NCBI GenBank assembly: GCA_031277435.1
Contig: JAITMI010000351.1
Coordinates: 1-11,401 of the forward strand
Direction: 5' to 3'
Source of the DNA: Pseudomonadales bacterium
GTDB taxonomy: Bacteria > Pseudomonadota > Gammaproteobacteria > Pseudomonadales > Pseudohongiellaceae
DNA: 11,401 bases
Part shown: piece after piece, positions 2 to 11,264 of the stretch
How the letters are laid out: the number at the start of each line of letters is the position of its first letter
Position numbering within the stretch: the first letter of the stretch is position 1
Translations under genes and position numbers: made by a program
The notes under the pieces: model-generated
The model's input: only the letters and a program-made list of their open reading frames with translations
What the model was told of the DNA's origin: nothing
The model's database searches: none

Positions 2-400
2 TGCGCCGGCTGCCATGACGTGATGGACCCGCTGGGCCTGTCGCTCGAAAACTTCAACGCCATCGGCCAATGGCGCGACCGCGACAGCGATGCCGGCAAC
101 ATCCCCATCGATGCCAGCGGCCGTCTCGCCAGCGGCAAGCCGATCAACGGCGTGAACGATCTGCGCGCAGCCCTGGTGGCGCGGCCGGAGCAGTTCGCGC
201 AGGTGCTGGTCGAGAAGATGCTGATGTACGCCATCGGCCGCGGCATCGAAGCGCACGACATGCCGGCGGTGCGCGCCATCGTGCATCGGGCTGCCGCCGA
301 CGATTACCGCTTTTCCGCCATCATCGCCGGCATCATCGCCAGCGATCAGTTCCAGCTGATGTCGGTGCCGCAGGATGGCGCCGTGGTGGGGGCTCGCTGA
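2..400 (+). CDS. DUF1588/DUF1585 c-type heme protein, C-terminal fragment
   Basis: The reading frame is already open at the window edge, so only the last 132 residues are present and the true start lies upstream. The first visible residues are a heme-binding CAGCH motif followed by DVMDPLG, the pattern seen in the DUF1588 part of large multi-domain proteins (DUF1592/DUF1588/DUF1585) that resemble planctomycete-type cytochromes. The remaining residues, with MYAIGRGIE and a terminal SDQFQ-like stretch, fit the short C-terminal DUF1585 domain. The protein is probably periplasmic and binds heme covalently. Its enzymatic role is unknown. The stop is 28 bases before the next gene, a Tat-exported DUF1552 protein, and these two families are commonly neighbours, which supports one operon. 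Family assignment is confident; function is not. Confidence 0.85.
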   Translation, partial: CAGCHDVMDPLGLSLENFNAIGQWRDRDSDAGNIPIDASGRLASGKPINGVNDLRAALVARPEQFAQVLVEKMLMYAIGRGIEAHDMPAVRAIVHRAAADDYRFSAIIAGIIASDQFQLMSVPQDGAVVGAR

Positions 401-428
401 GCCGGGCCGCATAGAAGAGGAGAGAGCC

Positions 429-1748
429 ATGTATTTGAGCAAAAAATATCTGCCCCGCAGAACTTTTCTGCGCAGCGCGCTGGCCACCGTTTCCCTGCCG
501 CTGCTCGACGCCATGATTCCCGCTGGCACCGCGCTGGCGCAAACCGCCGCCAATGTACCGCCGCGGCTGGGTTTCATCTATGTGCCGCACGGCGCGGTGA
601 TGAGCAACTGGACGCCGGACAAAGTGGGCCGCGATTTTGAACTCAAATCGGTGCTGACGCCCTTCGCCAAGTACCAGGAGTATTTGACCATTGTGTCAAA
701 TTTGGAAAACCGGCGCGCTTACGGCCCGGTGCACGCCATCACGCCCGGCACCTGGCTCACCGGCGCCGCGCCGCGCGTCAGCCATGAACCGTTTGGCGGC
801 GTCACCATCGACCAGATCGCCGCGCAGCACATCGGCCAGGATACGCCGCTGCCCTCGATTGAAGTCGCCACCGAAGCTGGCGCTGGCGCTGGCGCCTGCG
901 ACCGCGCTTACGGTTGCAGCTACGCGGGCACGATTTCCTTCCGCACCCCCAGCACGCCGCTGCCGATGGAAAACAACCCGCGCAAATTATTCCAGACCCT
1001 GTTCGGCGTGGGCGACAGCGTCGCCGAACGCGAACGCATCGGCAAACAAACCGCCAGCATTCTCGACTTGATGCTGGAGGAAAGCGCCGCGCTTAATCAG
1101 CGGCTTGGCGCCGCCGACAAGATCGTGCTGGGCGATTACCTCGAAACCGTGCGCGAAGTGGAACGGCGCATCCAAAAAAGCGCTGAACATGATCTGTCGT
1201 ACATGGAACTGCCTGACGCGCCGCAAGGGATGCCCGGCGATTTCGACACCCTGCTCAACCTGCAACTCGATTTGATCGCGCTGGCTTACCAAGGCAATAT
1301 CACCCGCATCGCCAACATGATGGTGGCGGCGGAAGTGAGCAACCTCACTTACAACCAGATCGGGGTTTCCGACGCCTTCCATCCGCTGTCGCATCACCAG
1401 AACGATCCGAACAAAATCGCGCGGCTGTTGCGCATTCAGGAATATCACAGCACGCTCTTGGCCAAGTTCATCGACAAACTGGCCGCCCTGCCCGACGGCG
1501 ACAAGGGCACCATGCTCGACAATGCTTTGATTCTGTACGGCAGCAACATGAGCAATTCCAACGCGCATGACCACTGGCCGCTGCCTTCGGTCATCATCGG
1601 CAAGGCGGGCGGGCGTATCAAAGGCGGCCAGCACATCATGACCGCCGAGCGCACGCCGGTGTCCAACCTGATGCTGACTATTCTTGACCGCCTTGGCGTG
1701 CCGGTGGACGAGCTGGGCGACGCTACCGGCTTGATTGAGGAGGCATGA
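429..1748 (+). CDS. Tat-exported DUF1552 protein
   Basis: This is a 439-residue protein of the DUF1552 family, whose biochemical role is unknown. I start it at the ATG at 429, after a purine-rich AGAAGAGGAGAG ribosome site, and not at upstream in-frame codons that would overlap the previous gene. The N-terminus has a twin-arginine motif (PRRTFLR, residues 9-15), a hydrophobic stretch and a likely cleavage after ALA at 35-37, so export of the folded protein by Tat is expected. The C-terminal half carries the family's characteristic YGSNMSNSNAHDHWPLP (370-386) and a glycine-rich GKAGGRIKGG (391-400). The His/Asp/Asn cluster there could bind metal or an active-site ligand, which is inference. 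A short Gly-Ala run (GAGAGA, 151-156) comes from a triplicated GCTGGC DNA motif. The stop overlaps the start of the ankyrin gene by four bases, indicating translational coupling. Confidence 0.9.
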   Translation: MYLSKKYLPRRTFLRSALATVSLPLLDAMIPAGTALAQTAANVPPRLGFIYVPHGAVMSNWTPDKVGRDFELKSVLTPFAKYQEYLTIVSNLENRRAYGPVHAITPGTWLTGAAPRVSHEPFGGVTIDQIAAQHIGQDTPLPSIEVATEAGAGAGACDRAYGCSYAGTISFRTPSTPLPMENNPRKLFQTLFGVGDSVAERERIGKQTASILDLMLEESAALNQRLGAADKIVLGDYLETVREVERRIQKSAEHDLSYMELPDAPQGMPGDFDTLLNLQLDLIALAYQGNITRIANMMVAAEVSNLTYNQIGVSDAFHPLSHHQNDPNKIARLLRIQEYHSTLLAKFIDKLAALPDGDKGTMLDNALILYGSNMSNSNAHDHWPLPSVIIGKAGGRIKGGQHIMTAERTPVSNLMLTILDRLGVPVDELGDATGLIEEA

Positions 1749-3283
1749 GCGCGATGAAGCCCTCCATGAAACGCCCCATGAAATTTGCCATGAATTTTTC
1801 GTTCCAAAATACTCTGCGCGCCGCCATTCTTGGCGCGCTGTTTTTGAGCGGCAGCGCAATAGCGCAGGATGACGCGCAACAGGCGCTGCAACTCCTCAGC
1901 CAGGGCGACGCTTCCGCCGCCGGGGTCTTGCTCGCCAATGACGTCAACGCCGCGCAAAACGACGGCACTACCGCGCTGCATTGGGCGATTTATTATAACG
2001 ACGCCGATCTGGTGGCACGGTTGCTCAGCCGTGGCGCCAACGTCAACGCGCGCAATAATTATGACGCCACGCCGCTGTCGCAAGCCGCGCTTACCGGCAA
2101 CCCCGGCATTATTGACCAATTATTACGCGCTGGCGCGGACGCCAACGAGCGCGGCGCCGACGATCAAAGCGCCTTGATGATCGTGGCGCGCAGCAGCAAC
2201 GCCGCCGCCGCCAAAGTCTTGCTTGAGGGCGGCGCTGACCCCAACGCGGTGGAACGCTGGCGCGGCCAAACCGCGCTGATGTGGGCCAGCGCGCAGGCGC
2301 AGCCGGAAATGGTGGCGCTTCTGCTCGAAGCTGGCGCCGACCCCAACGCACAATCTTTACCGAACGATTGGGAACGCCAGGTCACCGCCGAACCGCGCAT
2401 GAAAGTCTTGCCGCCGGGCGGCATGACCTCTCTGCATTACGCCGCGCGCGAAGGCTGCGCCGAGTGCGCCGCGCTCTTGCTCGACGCTGGCGCCAGAATC
2501 GACCAAGCCGACCCTGATGGCGTCACGGCGCTGCTCTTGGCCACACTCAACGCGCAGTGGGACACGGCCAAGGTCTTGATCGAGGCCGGCGCCAATCTCG
2601 ACAAGTGGGATATTTACGGCCGCTCGCCGCTCTACGGTGCGGTGGATTACAACACCGTGCCGCACGGTGGCCGCGCTGACCGGCTTTCGGCTGATCTGAC
2701 GCCTAATATCGACATCATCCGCATGATTCTGGAACGCGGCGGCAATCCCAACTTGCAACTCAAACTCTTTCCGCCCTACCGCAGCCTGGGCGCGGATCGC
2801 GGCGCCGACGGCTTGCTACGCAGCGGCGCCACCGCGCTGTTTCGCGCCGCGCGCGGCGGCGACGCGGAGGCCACGCAATTATTGCTGGCGCACGGCGCCC
2901 TGGTGGATTTACCCAACGAAGACGGCATCACCCCGCTGATGGCCGCCAGCGGCTACCGCAGCAGCGGCGTCGATACCCGCGGCAAATTCCGCACCGAAGC
3001 GCAAGCCTACGCCGTGGTCAAACTGCTGCTGGAGGGCGGCGCCGATGTCAACGCCAGCGAAAGCTTCGGCCAAACCGCGCTCTTCGGCGCCGCCACCAGT
3101 GGCTGGAACACGGTAGTGCAACTCTTGGCCGACTACGGCGCCGACCTCGCCCACCACGACCAAGGCGACAGCACCCCCCTCGACGCCGCCCTCGGCCGCG
3201 GCAGCCGCATTGGCCGCGGCGGTGGCGGCGAGCAGCATGTGGAAACGGCGGCCTTGATTGAAAAATTATTGTCCGAAAAATAA
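1745..3283 (+). CDS. Exported ankyrin-repeat protein
   Basis: This is a 512-residue protein made almost entirely of ankyrin repeats. It has an N-terminal signal sequence with a basic, Met-rich start, a hydrophobic stretch around 24-38 and probable cleavage after SAIA (37-40). About ten repeats follow from about residue 44 to 510, recognisable by recurring TALHWA/TPL and LLEGGADPNA-type motifs (for example 76-101, 107-134, 175-202, 226-253, 259-286, 394-401 with 424-437, and 444-469). Two longer insertions interrupt the array (about 203-225 and 304-360). Ankyrin arrays bind other proteins, so this is probably a periplasmic scaffold or partner for the DUF1552 and heme proteins encoded just upstream. 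The ATG overlaps the DUF1552 stop (ATGA) and is preceded by GAGGAGG. In-frame ATGs a few codons downstream are possible alternative starts. The binding partner is unknown. Confidence 0.9.
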   Translation: MSAMKPSMKRPMKFAMNFSFQNTLRAAILGALFLSGSAIAQDDAQQALQLLSQGDASAAGVLLANDVNAAQNDGTTALHWAIYYNDADLVARLLSRGANVNARNNYDATPLSQAALTGNPGIIDQLLRAGADANERGADDQSALMIVARSSNAAAAKVLLEGGADPNAVERWRGQTALMWASAQAQPEMVALLLEAGADPNAQSLPNDWERQVTAEPRMKVLPPGGMTSLHYAAREGCAECAALLLDAGARIDQADPDGVTALLLATLNAQWDTAKVLIEAGANLDKWDIYGRSPLYGAVDYNTVPHGGRADRLSADLTPNIDIIRMILERGGNPNLQLKLFPPYRSLGADRGADGLLRSGATALFRAARGGDAEATQLLLAHGALVDLPNEDGITPLMAASGYRSSGVDTRGKFRTEAQAYAVVKLLLEGGADVNASESFGQTALFGAATSGWNTVVQLLADYGADLAHHDQGDSTPLDAALGRGSRIGRGGGGEQHVETAALIEKLLSEK

Positions 3284-3348: not shown

Positions 3349-4050
3349 ATGACCCTCACCCCCTTCCGCGACATCATCGCCCTGGCCGAGGCGCGCAAAG
3401 GCGGCGCGCGCGAGCTGGCCAAGCGAGTGGGCGCGTCCAAGCCGCTCAGCGCGAAACGGCTTGCGGCGATTCCTGATGCGCGTTATCTCGCCATGATGAC
3501 CAAGTGCATCTTTCAGGCGGGTTTCAATTGGAAGGTGATCGAGCATAAATGGCGGGGCTTCGAGGAAGCATTTTACGGTTTCAACCCAAAGGGGCTGGCG
3601 CATCTTGCGCCGGAACAATGGGACGCCTACAGCGGCGACACCCGCATCGTGCGCAACCCCACCAAGATCCGCGCGGTGCTCGGCAACGCGAATTTCGTGT
3701 GGAATACCGCTGAACAATACGGCAGCTTTGGCCGCCGCTTCGCCTCTTGGCCGGCCAGCGACCAGATCGGCCTGATGGCCTGGCTGAAGCAGGAAGGCGA
3801 GCGATTGGGCGGCAATACCGGCATGTATTTCATCCGTTTCATGGGCAAGGACGGCTACATCATCAGCGCCGACGTCACCGCGCGCCTGCAAGCCAGCGGG
3901 CTTGCCATCGCCACCATCCCCAGCAGCAAACGCGATTTGCGCCAGGTGCAGGAGGCTTTCAACCAATGGCATGAGGAAACGGGCTTGAGTTATACCGAAT
4001 TGTCGCGCATTGCGGCGTGTTCGATTGGGCCGAACTATTTATCGGATTGA
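3349..4050 (+). CDS. Divergent 3-methyladenine DNA glycosylase I (Tag) family protein
   Basis: This 233-residue protein resembles DNA-3-methyladenine glycosylase I, which removes 3-methyladenine from alkylated DNA in the cytoplasm. The shared core is visible at QAGFNWKVIEHKW (56-68, matching QAGLSWITVLKKR of E. coli Tag as I recall it), then FEEAFYGFNP, IVRNPTKIRAVLGNA (100-114) and the helix-hairpin-helix-like GGNTGMYFIRFMGKDGY (154-170). Two Tag hallmarks look absent. The position of E. coli Glu38 appears to be Cys53, and the N- and C-terminal Cys/His zinc ligands are not seen. An extra N-terminal helix region and a C-terminal extension make it longer than the roughly 187-residue E. coli enzyme. 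It may be a Tag-like subfamily with altered activity. The ATG follows GAGAGG at 6-base spacing. The final codons lie inside the first copy of a 44-bp repeat. Confidence 0.75.
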   Translation: MTLTPFRDIIALAEARKGGARELAKRVGASKPLSAKRLAAIPDARYLAMMTKCIFQAGFNWKVIEHKWRGFEEAFYGFNPKGLAHLAPEQWDAYSGDTRIVRNPTKIRAVLGNANFVWNTAEQYGSFGRRFASWPASDQIGLMAWLKQEGERLGGNTGMYFIRFMGKDGYIISADVTARLQASGLAIATIPSSKRDLRQVQEAFNQWHEETGLSYTELSRIAACSIGPNYLSD

Positions 4051-4182
4051 CGCAGAGCGTCAATCCTGACGCCGCAGGCGCTTTATCGGACTGACGCGAA
4101 GCGTCAATCCTGACGCCGCGGGCGCTTTATCGGACTGACCCGGAGCGTCAATCCTGACGCCGCGGGCGCTTTACCGGGCTGA
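4037..4182 (+). repeat. Three 44-bp tandem repeats with nested inverted repeats
   Basis: Three consecutive 44-bp units occupy 4037-4080, 4081-4124 and 4125-4168, with a degenerate fourth start at 4169-4182. Each unit carries TGACGC, its inverse GCGTCA, then TGACGC again, so either of two overlapping hairpins could form, plus a small CGCC/GGCG stem. The first unit has a perfect TTGACGC-AGA-GCGTCAA stem, the second keeps six pairs, and the third has one mismatch. The first unit supplies the last codons and stop (TTA TCG GAT TGA) of the glycosylase gene. No transposase is nearby. It may act as a REP-like mRNA stabiliser or as a transcription attenuator before the heme-protein gene; the role is inference. 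Confidence 0.85.
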
Positions 4183-6931: not shown

Positions 6932-7522
6932 TCAACGCACATCTTGCAATTCCCCGCCAATATCCCGCGCCAACTGGTCGAGCAATTCGCGTAGTTGGCG
7001 CACCGCTTGCGGGTAGCCGTCGTCGCGCAGGGCTTGGCGTAAATTGAATTCACGGTTCAATACTTCCCTGCCCGCCGCTACGTCTACGATTTGATAACGT
7101 CCGCCGGCCACGACTTCGCTGGAATCGGTGGCGTGGAAGGCGTCGAGATAGAGGCGCAAGGCGTAGGTGGGCGCGGGCACGAAATCGCTGCCGCGCAGGA
7201 AATAGCGGTAATTGGGCGCTGCGGCGCGCAGGGAGCGGAGCAGGGCTTCGGGCACCGCCACGTCGAGACCTTCGGCCCACAGGTGGCTGCGTGATACTTG
7301 CAACTGATTATCGCCTTGCTGCAATACCAGACCCGATTGTTCCAGATATTCGGCCAGCGTGATGCTTTCCAGCACCAGCGCGGGCACGCTCGGGTCCACT
7401 GGCGCGGCGCTGGCGCCATCGCGGCCATTGAGCAAGTAATAACTAAGCTGTACCGGTTCGACGTTGATGCAGGCGCCAAGCAGCGCGCTCAATGACAAGG
7501 CCAGGGCAAGGCGGGCGTTCAT
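6932..7522 (-). CDS. pqiC: PqiC, ABC-type/MCE transport auxiliary lipoprotein
   Basis: This 196-residue protein is the lipoprotein member of the PqiABC lipid-transport system. Its signal peptide ends in a clear lipobox (LLGAC, with the modified Cys at 18), predicting attachment to a membrane by lipid. E. coli PqiC sits in the outer membrane, where it docks the PqiB needle. The mature part starts with the family pattern SYYLL (27-31), followed by PALVLESITLAEYLEQSGLV (47-66), typical of the DUF330/YmbA fold that binds a partner strand. The ATG overlaps the pqiB stop by four bases (ATGA), so translation is probably coupled. It is the last gene of the operon. No clear intrinsic terminator is seen immediately after it; a hairpin-rich repeat follows about 80 bases downstream. 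Confidence 0.9.
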   Translation of the reverse strand: MNARLALALSLSALLGACINVEPVQLSYYLLNGRDGASAAPVDPSVPALVLESITLAEYLEQSGLVLQQGDNQLQVSRSHLWAEGLDVAVPEALLRSLRAAAPNYRYFLRGSDFVPAPTYALRLYLDAFHATDSSEVVAGGRYQIVDVAAGREVLNREFNLRQALRDDGYPQAVRQLRELLDQLARDIGGELQDVR

Positions 7523-9252
7523 GGCTGTTTCCTCACAGGCTGCGCTTCGGCTGGCGGCGGCTCGGAGAACAAGAGCCTGCTGGGGCGCTGGCGCAGTTCT
7601 TCCGCCAGCGGGCGAAATTCATTCATCAGGTCGGTTACGGCGTTCAAGGTGCGCTGGATGTCGCGCGTGGCGCTCGATTCGGCGGAATAGGTATCGGCCA
7701 AGGTTTGCAGCGCGCTCAAGGTGGCGTCGAGCTGCCCCACCAGCGCGGTGCTGCGTTCGCTGGCCATGAGATCCTGAGTGGATTCGAGCAAACTTTGCAT
7801 CTGTTCCAGTGAAGTGGCGGCTTGGCGGGTGAGTTCGCTGATGCCATCGAGCGCGTTTTCAACCGGTAGTTCATTAAGTTTGACCAGCAAGGCTTCGATA
7901 CTGTTGGTGAAGCGGCTGATCGAGCCGTGGTCGGTGGGGATTATCGCGAGGCCGTCAAAATAATCCAGCTCGTCGCGCGCGATATTATTTTGGTATTGTA
8001 GTTCCACTTGCTGCTGCCCCACCAGAAAATTGCGTGAGCCGATGGTGGCGGTGAGGCCGGCGCGAATCCAGTTTTCGATGTCGGCGCGGGCGCGCGCGGC
8101 GCCGTCGGAGGTATCGGGCAGGCCGAGGCGGGCGGGCTGAATTTCGATCAGGATCGGCAGTTGCAGGCTGCGGTCGAGCAGGTTGCGGCCTTCGGGAATG
8201 TTGTCGGTGTCCACCACGCGGCCCACTGGCAGGCCGCGGTACATCACGCGCGAATCTTCGCTGAGGCCGCCCACGCCCACGCTGTCGCTCACCATGATCC
8301 AGTAGCGCAGGCTTTGCTGATATTGGTGATCTTCGATTTCGGCGCGGCTGCCGTACACGTAGAATTCGGTTTGCACGTTGACCGTGTCGCTGAGCGTAAC
8401 GCCCGGCGGATTGGCGAAGGACACCCCGCCCGAGAGCAGCGAATCCAAAGTGCCGGTTTCCAGGCGCACGCCGTCGCTGGTCAGTTCGGCCTGTACGCCG
8501 CTGGTTTTCCAAAAGCGCGTTTGCGGCACGATGAGTTCGTGGAACGGTGCTTCAATAAAGGCGTCGTAATAGGTGCGGCCATCCTCAAAGTCGTAACGCA
8601 CGTCTTCGATCTGGCCTACGTCGCGGCCTTGGTAATGCACGTGATCGCCTTCGGCAAACGAAAAATCACCGTCGGCCACCAGCGTGATGCGCAGCCCCGG
8701 CGTGCCGATGGGGGTGAGCGGCGGTTTGTCGAGGCCGGTGAATTCGCTGCTCATGCGCCGCGCGCCGCCGGGGGCGAATTCGATGTATTGGCCGGAAATC
8801 AAGGTATTGAGCCCCGATACGCCGGCCAGCGACACGATCGGCTGCACTACCCAAAAACGCGAATTTTCGGCCAAGAGGCCGCGGAAATTGCCGTGAATGC
8901 GCGCGGTGACGATGACGCCATCGAGCGTGTCGTTGAGCGTGACGTCCTCCACTTGCCCCACTTCCACATCGAGCGTCTTGATCAAGGTGCGGCCCGCTTC
9001 GATGCCCGCGCCGCTTTTGAAATGGATCGTCACCAGGGGGCCGCGGCCACGGTAATTGTCGAAGGCCATGCCGAGCGCCACCAGCAAGGTCACCAGTGGA
9101 ATCAGCCACAGCCCGGAAATGCGCCGCGGGCGGCGGATGCGCGCGGGGGCCGCGCCGTTTTGTTCTGAGATTTTTGTTTCAGAATTCTGGTTTGCGGAGC
9201 CGTTGTTTGTGGAGCTATTGTTTGTGGAACTATTGTTTTCAGGGCTACTCAT
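7519..9252 (-). CDS. pqiB: PqiB, MCE-domain intermembrane lipid-transport protein
   Basis: This 577-residue protein has one N-terminal membrane segment (about 47-64), three MCE domains (about 72-163, 187-280 and 317-421) and a long helical tail (about 448-560), the layout of E. coli PqiB (546 residues). In E. coli the protein forms a hexamer whose stacked MCE rings and helical needle bridge the periplasm and carry lipids between the membranes. MCE cues include VTIHFKSGAGIEAGRT near 74-89 and VMYRGLPVGRV near 336-346. I start at the ATG at 9252 and not at an upstream in-frame codon inside pqiA, since the extra residues look like pqiA shadow. The start overlaps the end of pqiA by eight bases. 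The N-terminal cytoplasmic tail is low complexity with about three NNSST repeats, making it longer than usual. Confidence 0.93.
   Translation of the reverse strand: MSSPENNSSTNNSSTNNGSANQNSETKISEQNGAAPARIRRPRRISGLWLIPLVTLLVALGMAFDNYRGRGPLVTIHFKSGAGIEAGRTLIKTLDVEVGQVEDVTLNDTLDGVIVTARIHGNFRGLLAENSRFWVVQPIVSLAGVSGLNTLISGQYIEFAPGGARRMSSEFTGLDKPPLTPIGTPGLRITLVADGDFSFAEGDHVHYQGRDVGQIEDVRYDFEDGRTYYDAFIEAPFHELIVPQTRFWKTSGVQAELTSDGVRLETGTLDSLLSGGVSFANPPGVTLSDTVNVQTEFYVYGSRAEIEDHQYQQSLRYWIMVSDSVGVGGLSEDSRVMYRGLPVGRVVDTDNIPEGRNLLDRSLQLPILIEIQPARLGLPDTSDGAARARADIENWIRAGLTATIGSRNFLVGQQQVELQYQNNIARDELDYFDGLAIIPTDHGSISRFTNSIEALLVKLNELPVENALDGISELTRQAATSLEQMQSLLESTQDLMASERSTALVGQLDATLSALQTLADTYSAESSATRDIQRTLNAVTDLMNEFRPLAEELRQRPSRLLFSEPPPAEAQPVRKQP
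9193..9237 (-). repeat. pqiB: 15-bp tandem repeat encoding NNSST in the PqiB tail
   Basis: Three 15-bp units (9237-9223, 9222-9208, 9207-9193) encode NNSST, NNSST and the diverged NNGSA at residues 6-20 of PqiB. Since 15 is a multiple of three, copy-number changes would alter tail length without breaking the frame. The region lies before the membrane segment, so it should be a flexible cytoplasmic tail. Confidence 0.7.
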
Positions 9253-10480
9253 GAGCTGCCTCGGAGGAAGTCCAGAACACGCGCGGATCGAGGCTGTGCG
9301 CGGCCAGCATGGTGAACCATACCATGCCGCCAAACGCCAGCGCCGCCGGGCCGGGCACCACGTTCATCAGGTTGCCCATTTGAATCAAGGCGGCCAGAAA
9401 ACCCACCACGAACACATCCACCATCGACCAGCGCCCGACGAATTCGGTGAAGCGGTACACGCTGGTGGCGGCGGCGGGCGATAGCAAACCGCGATGCCGC
9501 TGGCACAGCGCCAAGGCGGCGATCGCCACGAATTTGGCCGGCGGCACCAGGAGGCTGGCGATGAAGATGATGCTGGCGATCATATAGGACTGATTGTCCC
9601 ACAACAGCGCCACGCCGCCGGCGATGGTGGAATCGATGCTGCCGCCCACCTGCGTGGTGCGCATGATGGGCAGGAGGTTGGCTGGTATGTAGAAGATCAG
9701 GCCGGTGAGCCATAGGCTCCAGCAGCGTTGCAACGAACTTCTTCCCCCGCTTGCGGGGGAAGGTTGGGATGGGGGCGTGGTGGTGTCGAGGCCCCCTCCC
9801 CAACCCTCCCCCGCTTGCGGGGGAGGGTTGGGCCCGGTGGAAGGAGAGGGTTGGCGCAACAAGCGCCGAATACTCAGCCCAAGCTGATACTGATCCATCT
9901 GCGCCAGCGACAGCACCAAAAATAGAATGAACAATCCATAAAACCAGAACGACGGCCCCAGGCTCACCTGCGCCATCTTGGCGATTTTGACCATGCTGAT
10001 AAGAACGCTGAGAAAGAAAATCTCCGCCATGTTCCAGGCGCGCACGAAGGTGATGAAGCGCAGTAGCGCGACGCTGTAAGCGCCGGCCTTGCCGAGTTCG
10101 AGGCTGAGCGCCAGGGCGCCGAGCGCCAACAGAAAGCTTAGCGGCAAGCCGATCACCACCACGCACATGAAGGCGGCCAGCGTCCATTCGTGCAGGGTGA
10201 ACAGGGTGGAAATGGTCTCGCTCAGCGTCAGGTCGCGCTCAATGCCGGTGCTGACCAGATCGATGAAGTCAAACGCCAGGCTGGCGCCCAGGCAGATCAA
10301 GGCGCTGAGGCAAAACGCCACGATGCGCACGTTGGCCTGGCGCCGCCGGTGGCTCAACACGCAGCCGCAGCGCGGGCATTCCGCGCGCCGGCCTTCCATC
10401 AGCCCGCCAAGGTCCACCACCAGGCCGCATTCGTGGCACGGCAGGCAGGTGTCGGGCAAGGGCTGAGCGGCGGCATCCAT
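9245..10480 (-). CDS. pqiA: PqiA, inner-membrane protein with a repeat-filled central linker
   Basis: This 411-residue protein is close in length to E. coli PqiA (417). The first half has a zinc ribbon (C15-x2-C18 and C35-x2-C38) followed by several membrane segments and the family motif WNMAEIFFLSVLISMVKI (149-166). The second half has SLQRCWSLWLTGLIFYIPAN (249-268), then LLPIM, and FVGRWSMVDVFVVGFLAALI (348-367), matching the second PqiA domain. E. coli PqiA has another cysteine cluster between the halves. Here residues about 210-247 are low-complexity Pro/Gly/Ser sequence encoded by a palindromic DNA repeat, and no CxxC pair exists in the second half. PqiA is thought to deliver or receive lipid for the PqiB bridge. 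The start is ATG at 10480 and the end overlaps pqiB. The frame is intact, so the protein may still work. Confidence 0.9.
   Translation of the reverse strand: MDAAAQPLPDTCLPCHECGLVVDLGGLMEGRRAECPRCGCVLSHRRRQANVRIVAFCLSALICLGASLAFDFIDLVSTGIERDLTLSETISTLFTLHEWTLAAFMCVVVIGLPLSFLLALGALALSLELGKAGAYSVALLRFITFVRAWNMAEIFFLSVLISMVKIAKMAQVSLGPSFWFYGLFILFLVLSLAQMDQYQLGLSIRRLLRQPSPSTGPNPPPQAGEGWGGGLDTTTPPSQPSPASGGRSSLQRCWSLWLTGLIFYIPANLLPIMRTTQVGGSIDSTIAGGVALLWDNQSYMIASIIFIASLLVPPAKFVAIAALALCQRHRGLLSPAAATSVYRFTEFVGRWSMVDVFVVGFLAALIQMGNLMNVVPGPAALAFGGMVWFTMLAAHSLDPRVFWTSSEAAHE
9741..9854. repeat. Palindromic GC-rich repeat block inside pqiA
   Basis: The block contains a 10-bp perfect stem with a TT loop (CTTCCCCCGC at 9741-9750 against 9753-9762) and a 16-bp perfect stem with a TT loop (9799-9814 against 9817-9832). 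Both centre on the same CCCCCGC-TT-GCGGGGG core. The flanks 9762-9776 and 9791-9805 are also near-perfect inverses of each other around a 14-base spacer, so the two copies are related as an inverted pair. A further partial match (GGAGAGGGTTGG) ends near 9854. This kind of CCCTCCCCC...GGGGGAGGG repeat usually lies between genes. Here it is read through in the pqiA frame without a stop. No transposase is associated with it. Confidence 0.9.
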
Positions 10481-10574: not shown

Positions 10575-10901
10575 TCACGGCACGATGCCGAAAAACACCG
10601 CCAGCGAGCGGGTGACGGCCAGCATCTGTGCGTCGCTGAGCGAACCAAAGACGGCGCCGAGTTTATCCCGCCGCAGCGTCATTGCCTTGTCCACCTGTAC
10701 TTGCGAGGGCAGGAGCAGGCCGTTGGTGGCGCCGGGCTGCACGGTGATGCGCAGTAGCGGCGCGTCCACCAGCGTGCTGGACAGCAGCAATACCGTGACC
10801 GTTGCACTGAGGTTGAATTGATCGGCCTGAATCACCAGCGCCGGGCGGGGTTTGCCAAAGTCGCCCTGCAGGGCGACGCTCACCAGGTCGCCGCGTTTCA
10901 T
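10575..10901 (-). CDS. MazF/PemK-family toxin
   Basis: This 108-residue protein fits the MazF/PemK toxin family (E. coli MazF is 111 residues), which are mostly sequence-specific mRNA-cutting ribonucleases. The opening KRGDLVSVALQGDFGKPRPA (2-21) is the family's N-terminal pattern, with the G-D and K-P-R-P loop that helps form the active site. It is followed by LVIQAD and a mid-protein VTVLLLSST strand-turn, where the family's catalytic Thr/Ser lies. LPSQVQVDKAMTLRRDKLG (64-82) matches the C-terminal consensus. The ATG overlaps the stop of the antitoxin gene by four bases, so the toxin is translated coupled to and after its antitoxin. pqiA begins 94 bases downstream on the same strand. The target sequence cannot be inferred. 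Family call is firm. Confidence 0.9.
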   Translation of the reverse strand: MKRGDLVSVALQGDFGKPRPALVIQADQFNLSATVTVLLLSSTLVDAPLLRITVQPGATNGLLLPSQVQVDKAMTLRRDKLGAVFGSLSDAQMLAVTRSLAVFFGIVP

Positions 10902-11122
10902 TTGGCATTCAGGAGGTCGTTGAGCGCGGCCTCCAGAAAGTCTTGCAGTTCGCTATCGGCGGCATCGGCGGCGGCTGCCAGGGCGGATTGCCGGCGGCAT
11001 TCTTCCGCAAAGCCAGGTTGCCGGGTATCGGGCACCCAAATCTGCACCGGGCGCAAACCGGCGGCCCGGAGGGCGGCGCGGCGTTTTTGTACGCGCTGAC
11101 TAACGGATGCGGGCTGTGCCAT
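10898..11122 (-). CDS. MazE-type antitoxin (DUF3018 family)
   Basis: This is a 74-residue protein of the DUF3018 antitoxin family, partner of the MazF toxin encoded directly downstream. The motif GLRPVQIWVPDTRQPGFAEE (22-41), followed by RRQS, is the family hallmark. The basic N-terminal region (VQKRRAALR, 11-19) probably binds DNA, and the acidic C-terminal helix (SELQDFLEAALNDLL) probably wraps the toxin. I start at the ATG at 11122 because it has a good GAGAGGAAG ribosome site; an upstream in-frame ATG at 11206 would add 28 residues unlike the family. The complex is expected to repress its own promoter, and a 12-bp palindrome lies about 50 bases upstream. Overlap with the toxin is four bases. 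Confidence 0.88.
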   Translation of the reverse strand: MAQPASVSQRVQKRRAALRAAGLRPVQIWVPDTRQPGFAEECRRQSALAAAADAADSELQDFLEAALNDLLNAK

Positions 11123-11170
11123 GGGCTTCCTCTCTCGGTAGCGCTTCGCGCGGTTTTTGAGATCGCTCAC

Positions 11171-11182
11171 GTTACATGTAAC
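11171..11182. promoter_or_regulatory. Palindrome upstream of the antitoxin gene, possible operator
   Basis: GTTACATGTAAC is a perfect 12-bp palindrome 49 bases before the antitoxin start. Toxin-antitoxin complexes usually autorepress through palindromes near their promoter, so this is a plausible operator. I could not place a convincing -35/-10 pair for the minus strand around it, so the role stays tentative. Confidence 0.45.
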
Positions 11183-11264
11183 AATCCGTAAAGACAAGCC
11201 TCCCAAAAAAAAGGGGCGATGACAACAAAATTTGACATAAGTTCAACAAATTCTTGATCCGGAA

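Follow-up and report, generated by a model that had tools for sequence, protein, structure and literature searches.

The window (the whole stretch of 11,401 nucleotides analysed here) belongs to G000, a metagenome-assembled genome of 2.13 Mb in 408 contigs that is 73% complete. Its minus strand carries a pqi operon in which pqiA (9245-10480) is followed by pqiB and pqiC. The features referred to below are:

9245..10480, minus strand: fused pqiA1-pqiA2 gene, a single 411-aa ORF for Paraquat-inducible protein A with two PF04403 stretches
9857..10480, minus strand: pqiA1-derived half, residues 1-208, with 72-74% identity to pqiA1 of the sister genome G005
10367..10438, minus strand: first zinc ribbon (retained), C15-x2-C18 ... 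C35-x2-C38, in nearly invariant columns, with model strands within residues 12-44
9734..9856, minus strand: 123-nt segment standing for 140 nt of G005 that hold the A1 stop, the GTG start of A2 and the zinc ribbon
9828..9856, minus strand: 29 nt between the conserved A1 end and the element, without counterpart in G005
9740..9827, minus strand: REPIN-like element in frame, an inverted pair of G+C-rich palindromes around a variable middle
9744..9759, unstranded: palindrome core 1, CCCCCGCTTGCGGGGG, from the core search
9808..9823, unstranded: palindrome core 2, CCCCCGCTTGCGGGGG, from the core search
9731..9733, minus strand: TTG in frame at residue 250, preceded by GGGGGAAGAAG, where the A2 half may have a start of its own
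9245..9733, minus strand: pqiA2-derived half without zinc ribbon, 78-80% identical to G005 pqiA2 where the two align
7519..9333, minus strand: pqiB, MlaD domains (PF02470)
6932..7522, minus strand: pqiC, PF03886 ABC_trans_aux lipoprotein

The pqiA ORF was free of internal stops across its 411 aa, and the frames of pqiB, whose true start is probably near 9252, and pqiC were open and matched their families. Elsewhere in the window, a PemK/MazF-like and MazE-like pair lies upstream of pqiA (10575-11206, minus strand), a tandem repeat of 3.3 copies of a 15-nt unit lies inside the N-terminal coding part of pqiB (9190-9238), and three 44-nt tandem units with internal inverted repeats (4038-4182) directly follow an Adenine_glyco-like ORF.

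By sequence and fold, the window PqiA is a LetA/YebS-type protein. It has the two PF04403 domains and the LetA-like fold expected of a PqiA, matched 9n8w (LetA, YebS) in a phmmer search (E 4.2e-31), and its model shares the two-half fold of that single-chain protein (Foldseek TM 0.79/0.83). The N-terminal CxxC...CxxC is present (C15, C18, C35, and C38), while the linker between the halves holds no CxxC, as an earlier note on this DNA had observed. A second cytoplasmic zinc ribbon, a further mark of PqiA, is therefore lacking in the window, but this trait is not universal. In alignment, the YebS linker keeps a CxxC...CPRC ribbon, whereas the linker of the window protein is encoded by a repeat and predicted to be disordered. 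The AlphaFold model of the fused protein, built with 47 fused homologues and zero split ones, had a mean pLDDT of 88.6 with 293 of 411 residues at 90 or above; both membrane halves were mostly above 90, and linker residues 224-235 fell below 50.

The same note had described a palindromic repeat at 9741-9854 that is read in frame inside pqiA without stops, and this description holds, since the ORF is open and the block recurs in its own genome. The block encodes about residues 209-247 of PqiA, RQPSPSTGPNPPPQAGEGWGGGLDTTTPPSQPSPASGGR. Its extent needs correction: the recurring element is 9740-9827, and 9828-9854 lies outside it. With the 114-nt block as query, at least 65 own-genome matches were found at E<=0.001 (40 of 52 first-look candidates were scored), and the best other copies begin at query position 28. 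The outer part, query positions 1-27, was reached by a few weaker matches, mostly on the opposite strand, that extend to position 11, and no own-genome match covered positions 1-10. The palindrome core YCCCCGCNNGCGGGGR occurred 196 times in the genome at up to 2 mismatches as against 47 for the reversed control, the conserved half-unit GGGGGANGGYTRGGRWGGGG 45 times (both strands together) as against 0, and a related CTCCC-type core 18 times as against 0. Judged by eye, the 29-nt flank is similar to part of the CTCCC-type repeat and may be such a fragment.

Reading 41 elements of the genome gave a layout of palindrome, tail like AGGGTTGGGGAGGGGGC, variable middle, inverted tail, and palindrome, or of one half of this; 17 of the 41 were dimers. 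Five poly-C/G rows (three at L088, two at L091) had been dropped before this count, which is why contig C217 stands outside the 41 despite its listed match, and three more repeat sites beyond the 41 were fetched. The element is thus, as REPs and REPINs are, a short palindrome in many copies that forms inverted doublets with a variable spacer, and like REPINs it has conserved inner tails. The block was found in 2 of 29 genomes searched, G000 itself and G005, which belong to one genus, and a distant-mode search of a plasmid collection gave no match. No match to a RAYT, the Y1 tyrosine (HUH) transposase (PF01797), appeared in the host genome (73% complete) or in G005 (88% complete), a difference from REPINs that may be due to the missing sequence.

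A study of GTAG/CGTC REPs describes palindromes of 20-40 bp, many of them inverted dimers and some inside ORFs, and proposes that intragenic copies are neutral in linkers or loops (PMC3733652). Set against these, the window repeat family has GTAG at a fixed outer offset of 6 in 7 of 56 units (same-letter shuffles: mean 2.2, at most 8) and the CGTC tag in 2 of 56. The 17 dimers offered 3.76 open frames each versus 3.77 in shuffles; no enrichment beyond composition was found, so the open frames imply no coding design. The RNA of 9730-9865 folds at -79.1 kcal/mol (z -5.75). At E<=1, the stretch 9600-10000 had 40 Rfam matches, none of them anywhere near its gathering score and nearly all of them microRNA hairpins, and an Rfam identity was rejected.

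In the sister genome G005, the closest to the window at PqiA (72-79% identity), pqiA1 and pqiA2 are separate genes overlapping on GTGA: pqiA1 ends in ...RRLLAEQEQAA*, and pqiA2 begins on the GTGA with VKAPDCHDLLGCRVCGL...CASCG...NLQRC. Five more relatives (JAHEFT, JAPHSB, JAHEFS, G015, and G022) have the split arrangement, and all six split relatives of the window's clade carry the zinc ribbon CxxC...CxxC at the start of pqiA2. All four additional second-half ORFs recovered from the same order have the ribbon too (two in G024, one each in G034 and G030:C77; this check gave no result for G029, G035, and G036), while fused PqiA proteins of the order occur both with it (G026) and without it (G030:C83). 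PqiA is patchily distributed: a search of 37 genomes, among them G000, found a match in 11.

A tree of 74 sequences, calculated with the linker removed, grouped the window with G005 at support 100. The window's clade, also at support 100, has eight members: the window, the six split forms with ribbon, and P0001, a fused protein with neither ribbon nor repeat. Among 120 listed PqiA homologues, a linker-region CxxC pair was present in 60 and absent in 60, and the repeat peptide was in none. The searches for homologues of PqiA, and of the second case described below, were limited to proteins of 0.55-1.75 times the query length. For PqiA the lower bound lies at about 226 aa, above most split halves, and 3 of the 120 were shorter than 330 aa. 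As this limit excludes most split forms, how common fused forms are cannot be read from the counts. The earlier note had named repeat-free relatives without the ribbon as evidence against its reading. Such proteins exist (the 60 homologues, P0001 among them, and G030:C83), which makes ribbon loss a recurrent event for which the palindrome is not needed, but the nearest split relatives all keep the ribbon.

Between the conserved RRLL and LQRC there are 140 nt in G005 versus 123 nt (41 codons) in the window, and nearly all of the space between the conserved ends of A1 and A2 is taken up by the element and its 29-nt flank. On the simplest reading of these sequences, the element came to replace the pqiA1/pqiA2 junction and fused both genes. 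The proposal that a mobile palindrome had replaced a metal-binding module while keeping the frame stands in so far as the repeat occupies the ribbon site of the nearest relatives, with pqiB and pqiC intact. It is incomplete, because pqiA1 and pqiA2 are separate genes in the clade and the event both fused two genes and removed a module. Taking E. coli PqiA as the reference, as the proposal did, obscures the split state of the window's clade.

A second case lies at another junction of the same genome. On contig C184 of G000 (104-2392, minus strand), a zf-ChsH2/OB-fold protein and a thiolase are joined in frame via a repeat dimer into an ORF of 762 aa. Among the 10 other genus genomes, 9 have the OB-fold/zinc-ribbon protein and the thiolase as two distinct matches, and G003 had no thiolase match. 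Seven such junctions were read at the DNA level: in six, the first protein ends in EQGSKEW* and its stop lies across the start of the next gene (ATGGTGA); the G005 junction has its stop before the start. In G000 the junction holds the repeat dimer and about 80 nt, with the frame open throughout. Fused forms of this pair are found elsewhere too, as 112 of 120 listed homologues had both PF01796 and PF22691 (the length limit leaves out single thiolases), and four sequences read by eye had the same domain order. None of all 240 listed homologues (120 PqiA and 120 OB-fold/thiolase) contains the repeat peptide; three pattern matches in thiolase homologues were native thiolase sequence. Fused forms of both pairs elsewhere, together with the 60 ribbon-less PqiA homologues, make both fusion and ribbon loss look tolerable.

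The split state in sister and clade, the replacement, the single open frame, and the second case at another junction can all be read directly from the DNA. The course of events that I consider probable is as follows. A copy of the genome-resident REPIN-like palindrome would have arrived at the junction of the overlapping pqiA1 and pqiA2 genes, and a local loss of about 140 nt would have taken away the stop of A1 along with the start and the zinc ribbon of A2. As it happened, the replacement kept the reading frame and brought in no stop, so that pqiA1 and pqiA2 are read as one gene, and the fused PqiA is presumably made as a single chain. Its linker would be disordered, as the model suggests, and the protein may still function as a PqiA.

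Why such a fusion should persist may lie in translation. Short gene overlaps couple the translation of neighbouring genes, and one study reports that a spacing of ~20 nt almost abolished coupling in six gene pairs (PMC10666635). An 88-bp hairpin at a 4-nt overlap should likewise uncouple the two genes, while with the stop lost and the frame open both products would come as one chain, their halves held at a 1:1 ratio. The fusion may thus have survived because the covalent link replaces a broken translational coupling, and selection may have acted on those fusions that survived. Two fusions through this repeat in G000 are too few for statistics, and one element speaks against the idea of selection for fusion: it sits between a radical SAM gene and an NAD epimerase gene that are co-directional and non-fused (L090), where the genus proteins are just 24-37% similar to the flanking genes and give no clear orthologue.

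It is also conceivable, though unlikely, that the fusion exists on paper only, with A2 still begun separately, ribbon-less, or translated at a lower level owing to the hairpin. The element supplies the purine-rich GGGGGAAGAAG ahead of the in-frame TTG at residue 250, the RNA fold given above would suit a lowered translation, and the OB-fold/thiolase fusion has in-frame GTG codons downstream of the repeat. Yet no stop separates the two halves, so a ribosome coming from A1 should read on, and translation would presumably begin only weakly from a TTG that coincides with the second half's first membrane helix.

That pqiA is a pseudogene in the making, inactivated by the loss of its ribbon and open by luck, appears improbable. 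The genus can do without PqiA, as just 1 of the 10 other members searched, G005, had a match, and about one third of replacements keep the frame by chance. Against this, the rest of the pqiA frame as well as pqiB and pqiC are open and match their families, and half of the listed homologues are ribbon-less too. A comparison of the window and G005 with five outgroups showed no significant rate difference, with 14-18 window-unique versus 6-8 G005-unique sites in the A1 half (p 0.06-0.12 over the five outgroups, a trend only). The dN/dS values versus G005 were 0.12-0.18 (A2), 0.17-0.19 (A1), and 0.16-0.20 (pqiB), and mostly reflect the time before the fusion.

I give the same small chance to an ancestor of the window that was already fused and ribbon-less, with the repeat landing later in its linker. 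P0001 offers such a state within the clade, but the sister G005 and the other five split members have separate genes with a ribbon, and little of the gap between the conserved ends is left over beside the element and its flank. An assembly artefact, a refuter that the earlier note had allowed for, is very improbable. Repeats in so fragmented an assembly could have been collapsed or wrongly joined, and 10 of 13 contigs picked for near-end repeats (not a random sample) have the repeat within 150 nt of an end. But the window copy shares no exact stretch longer than 36 nt with any of 49 other own-genome loci compared (41 nt in the second case), and in each of the two fusions the right pair of genes flanks the repeat, correctly ordered and in frame. 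Exact matches of 36-41 nt lie below the usual final k-mers of assemblers.

The probable fusion by a resident palindrome has partial precedents. Rickettsia palindromic elements (RPEs) are palindromic repeats found in frame inside conserved proteins, and the accessible part of a review also describes in-frame MITE fusions, small repeats whose open frames fuse to other open frames (PMC2229807, PMC10969869 for RPEs; PMC2229807, Delihas review, for MITEs). As described there, MITE fusions join a repeat to one gene, whereas the window element joins two adjacent genes. Gene fusion is absent from the account of intragenic REPs in the available text of PMC3733652, where the term occurs 0 times. The parallel with RPEs drawn in the earlier note is a fair one in that the G000 repeat is in frame within several proteins (PqiA, an RND transporter, and the OB-fold/thiolase protein); unlike RPEs, it resides in a different host, and its window copy joins a pair of adjacent genes and takes the place of a metal-binding module. 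RPEs are not known to share sequence with the window repeat. In a literature search on repeats and fusion, with subscription journals mostly outside its scope, none of the papers listed dealt, judging by title and abstract opening, with REP-caused fusion of adjacent genes. Intragenic REPs and in-frame RPE/MITE fusions are already known; repeat-associated fusion at overlapping stop/start junctions appears to be new.

Whether REPs landing on the stop/start overlaps of coupled genes form a general route to bacterial gene fusions is a more tentative idea, possible but doubtful. If true, an insertion would break coupling unless the frame stays open, the survivors would be in-frame fusions of products that already cooperate, and the repeat would serve as a ready-made linker. 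Gene fusions are widely used for predicting protein partners, and the origin of a fusion is rarely visible at its junction. In G000 the fusing agent is still visible twice, and both products copy layouts that are found elsewhere without the repeat. The window PqiA also provides a natural test of whether PqiA/LetA-type transporters need the second zinc ribbon.

The repeat is common inside reading frames, with 19 of the 41 elements lying inside an ORF that has at least 25 codons on either side. The longest such ORF was Pfam-scanned at 13 of the 19; the remaining six ORFs, at most 155 aa, were left unscanned. A recognisable protein on both sides of the repeat was seen in three ORFs, namely PqiA, the 762-aa OB-fold/thiolase ORF, and an RND (PF00873) transporter. 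In this last one (contig C205 of G000, 1482-1505) the repeat peptide is in frame in the loop between the two halves, and no close orthologue of the gene spans the repeat site. Of the 28 elements listed for G005, the ORF of apolipoprotein N-acyltransferase (Lnt) alone was Pfam-scanned, and it holds a repeat cluster in frame after LNT_N (contig C24, 1494-1551). Beyond the genus, an acyl-CoA dehydrogenase-like ORF (identified by eye) of the alphaproteobacterial MAG UBA1002 has the repeat peptide in frame near its C-terminus (~3001-3207). The linker of a naturally fused OB-fold/thiolase protein (P0121, residues 138-155) contains RPERVEGSFDKHR, which I take to be the peptide of a different bacterial repeat.
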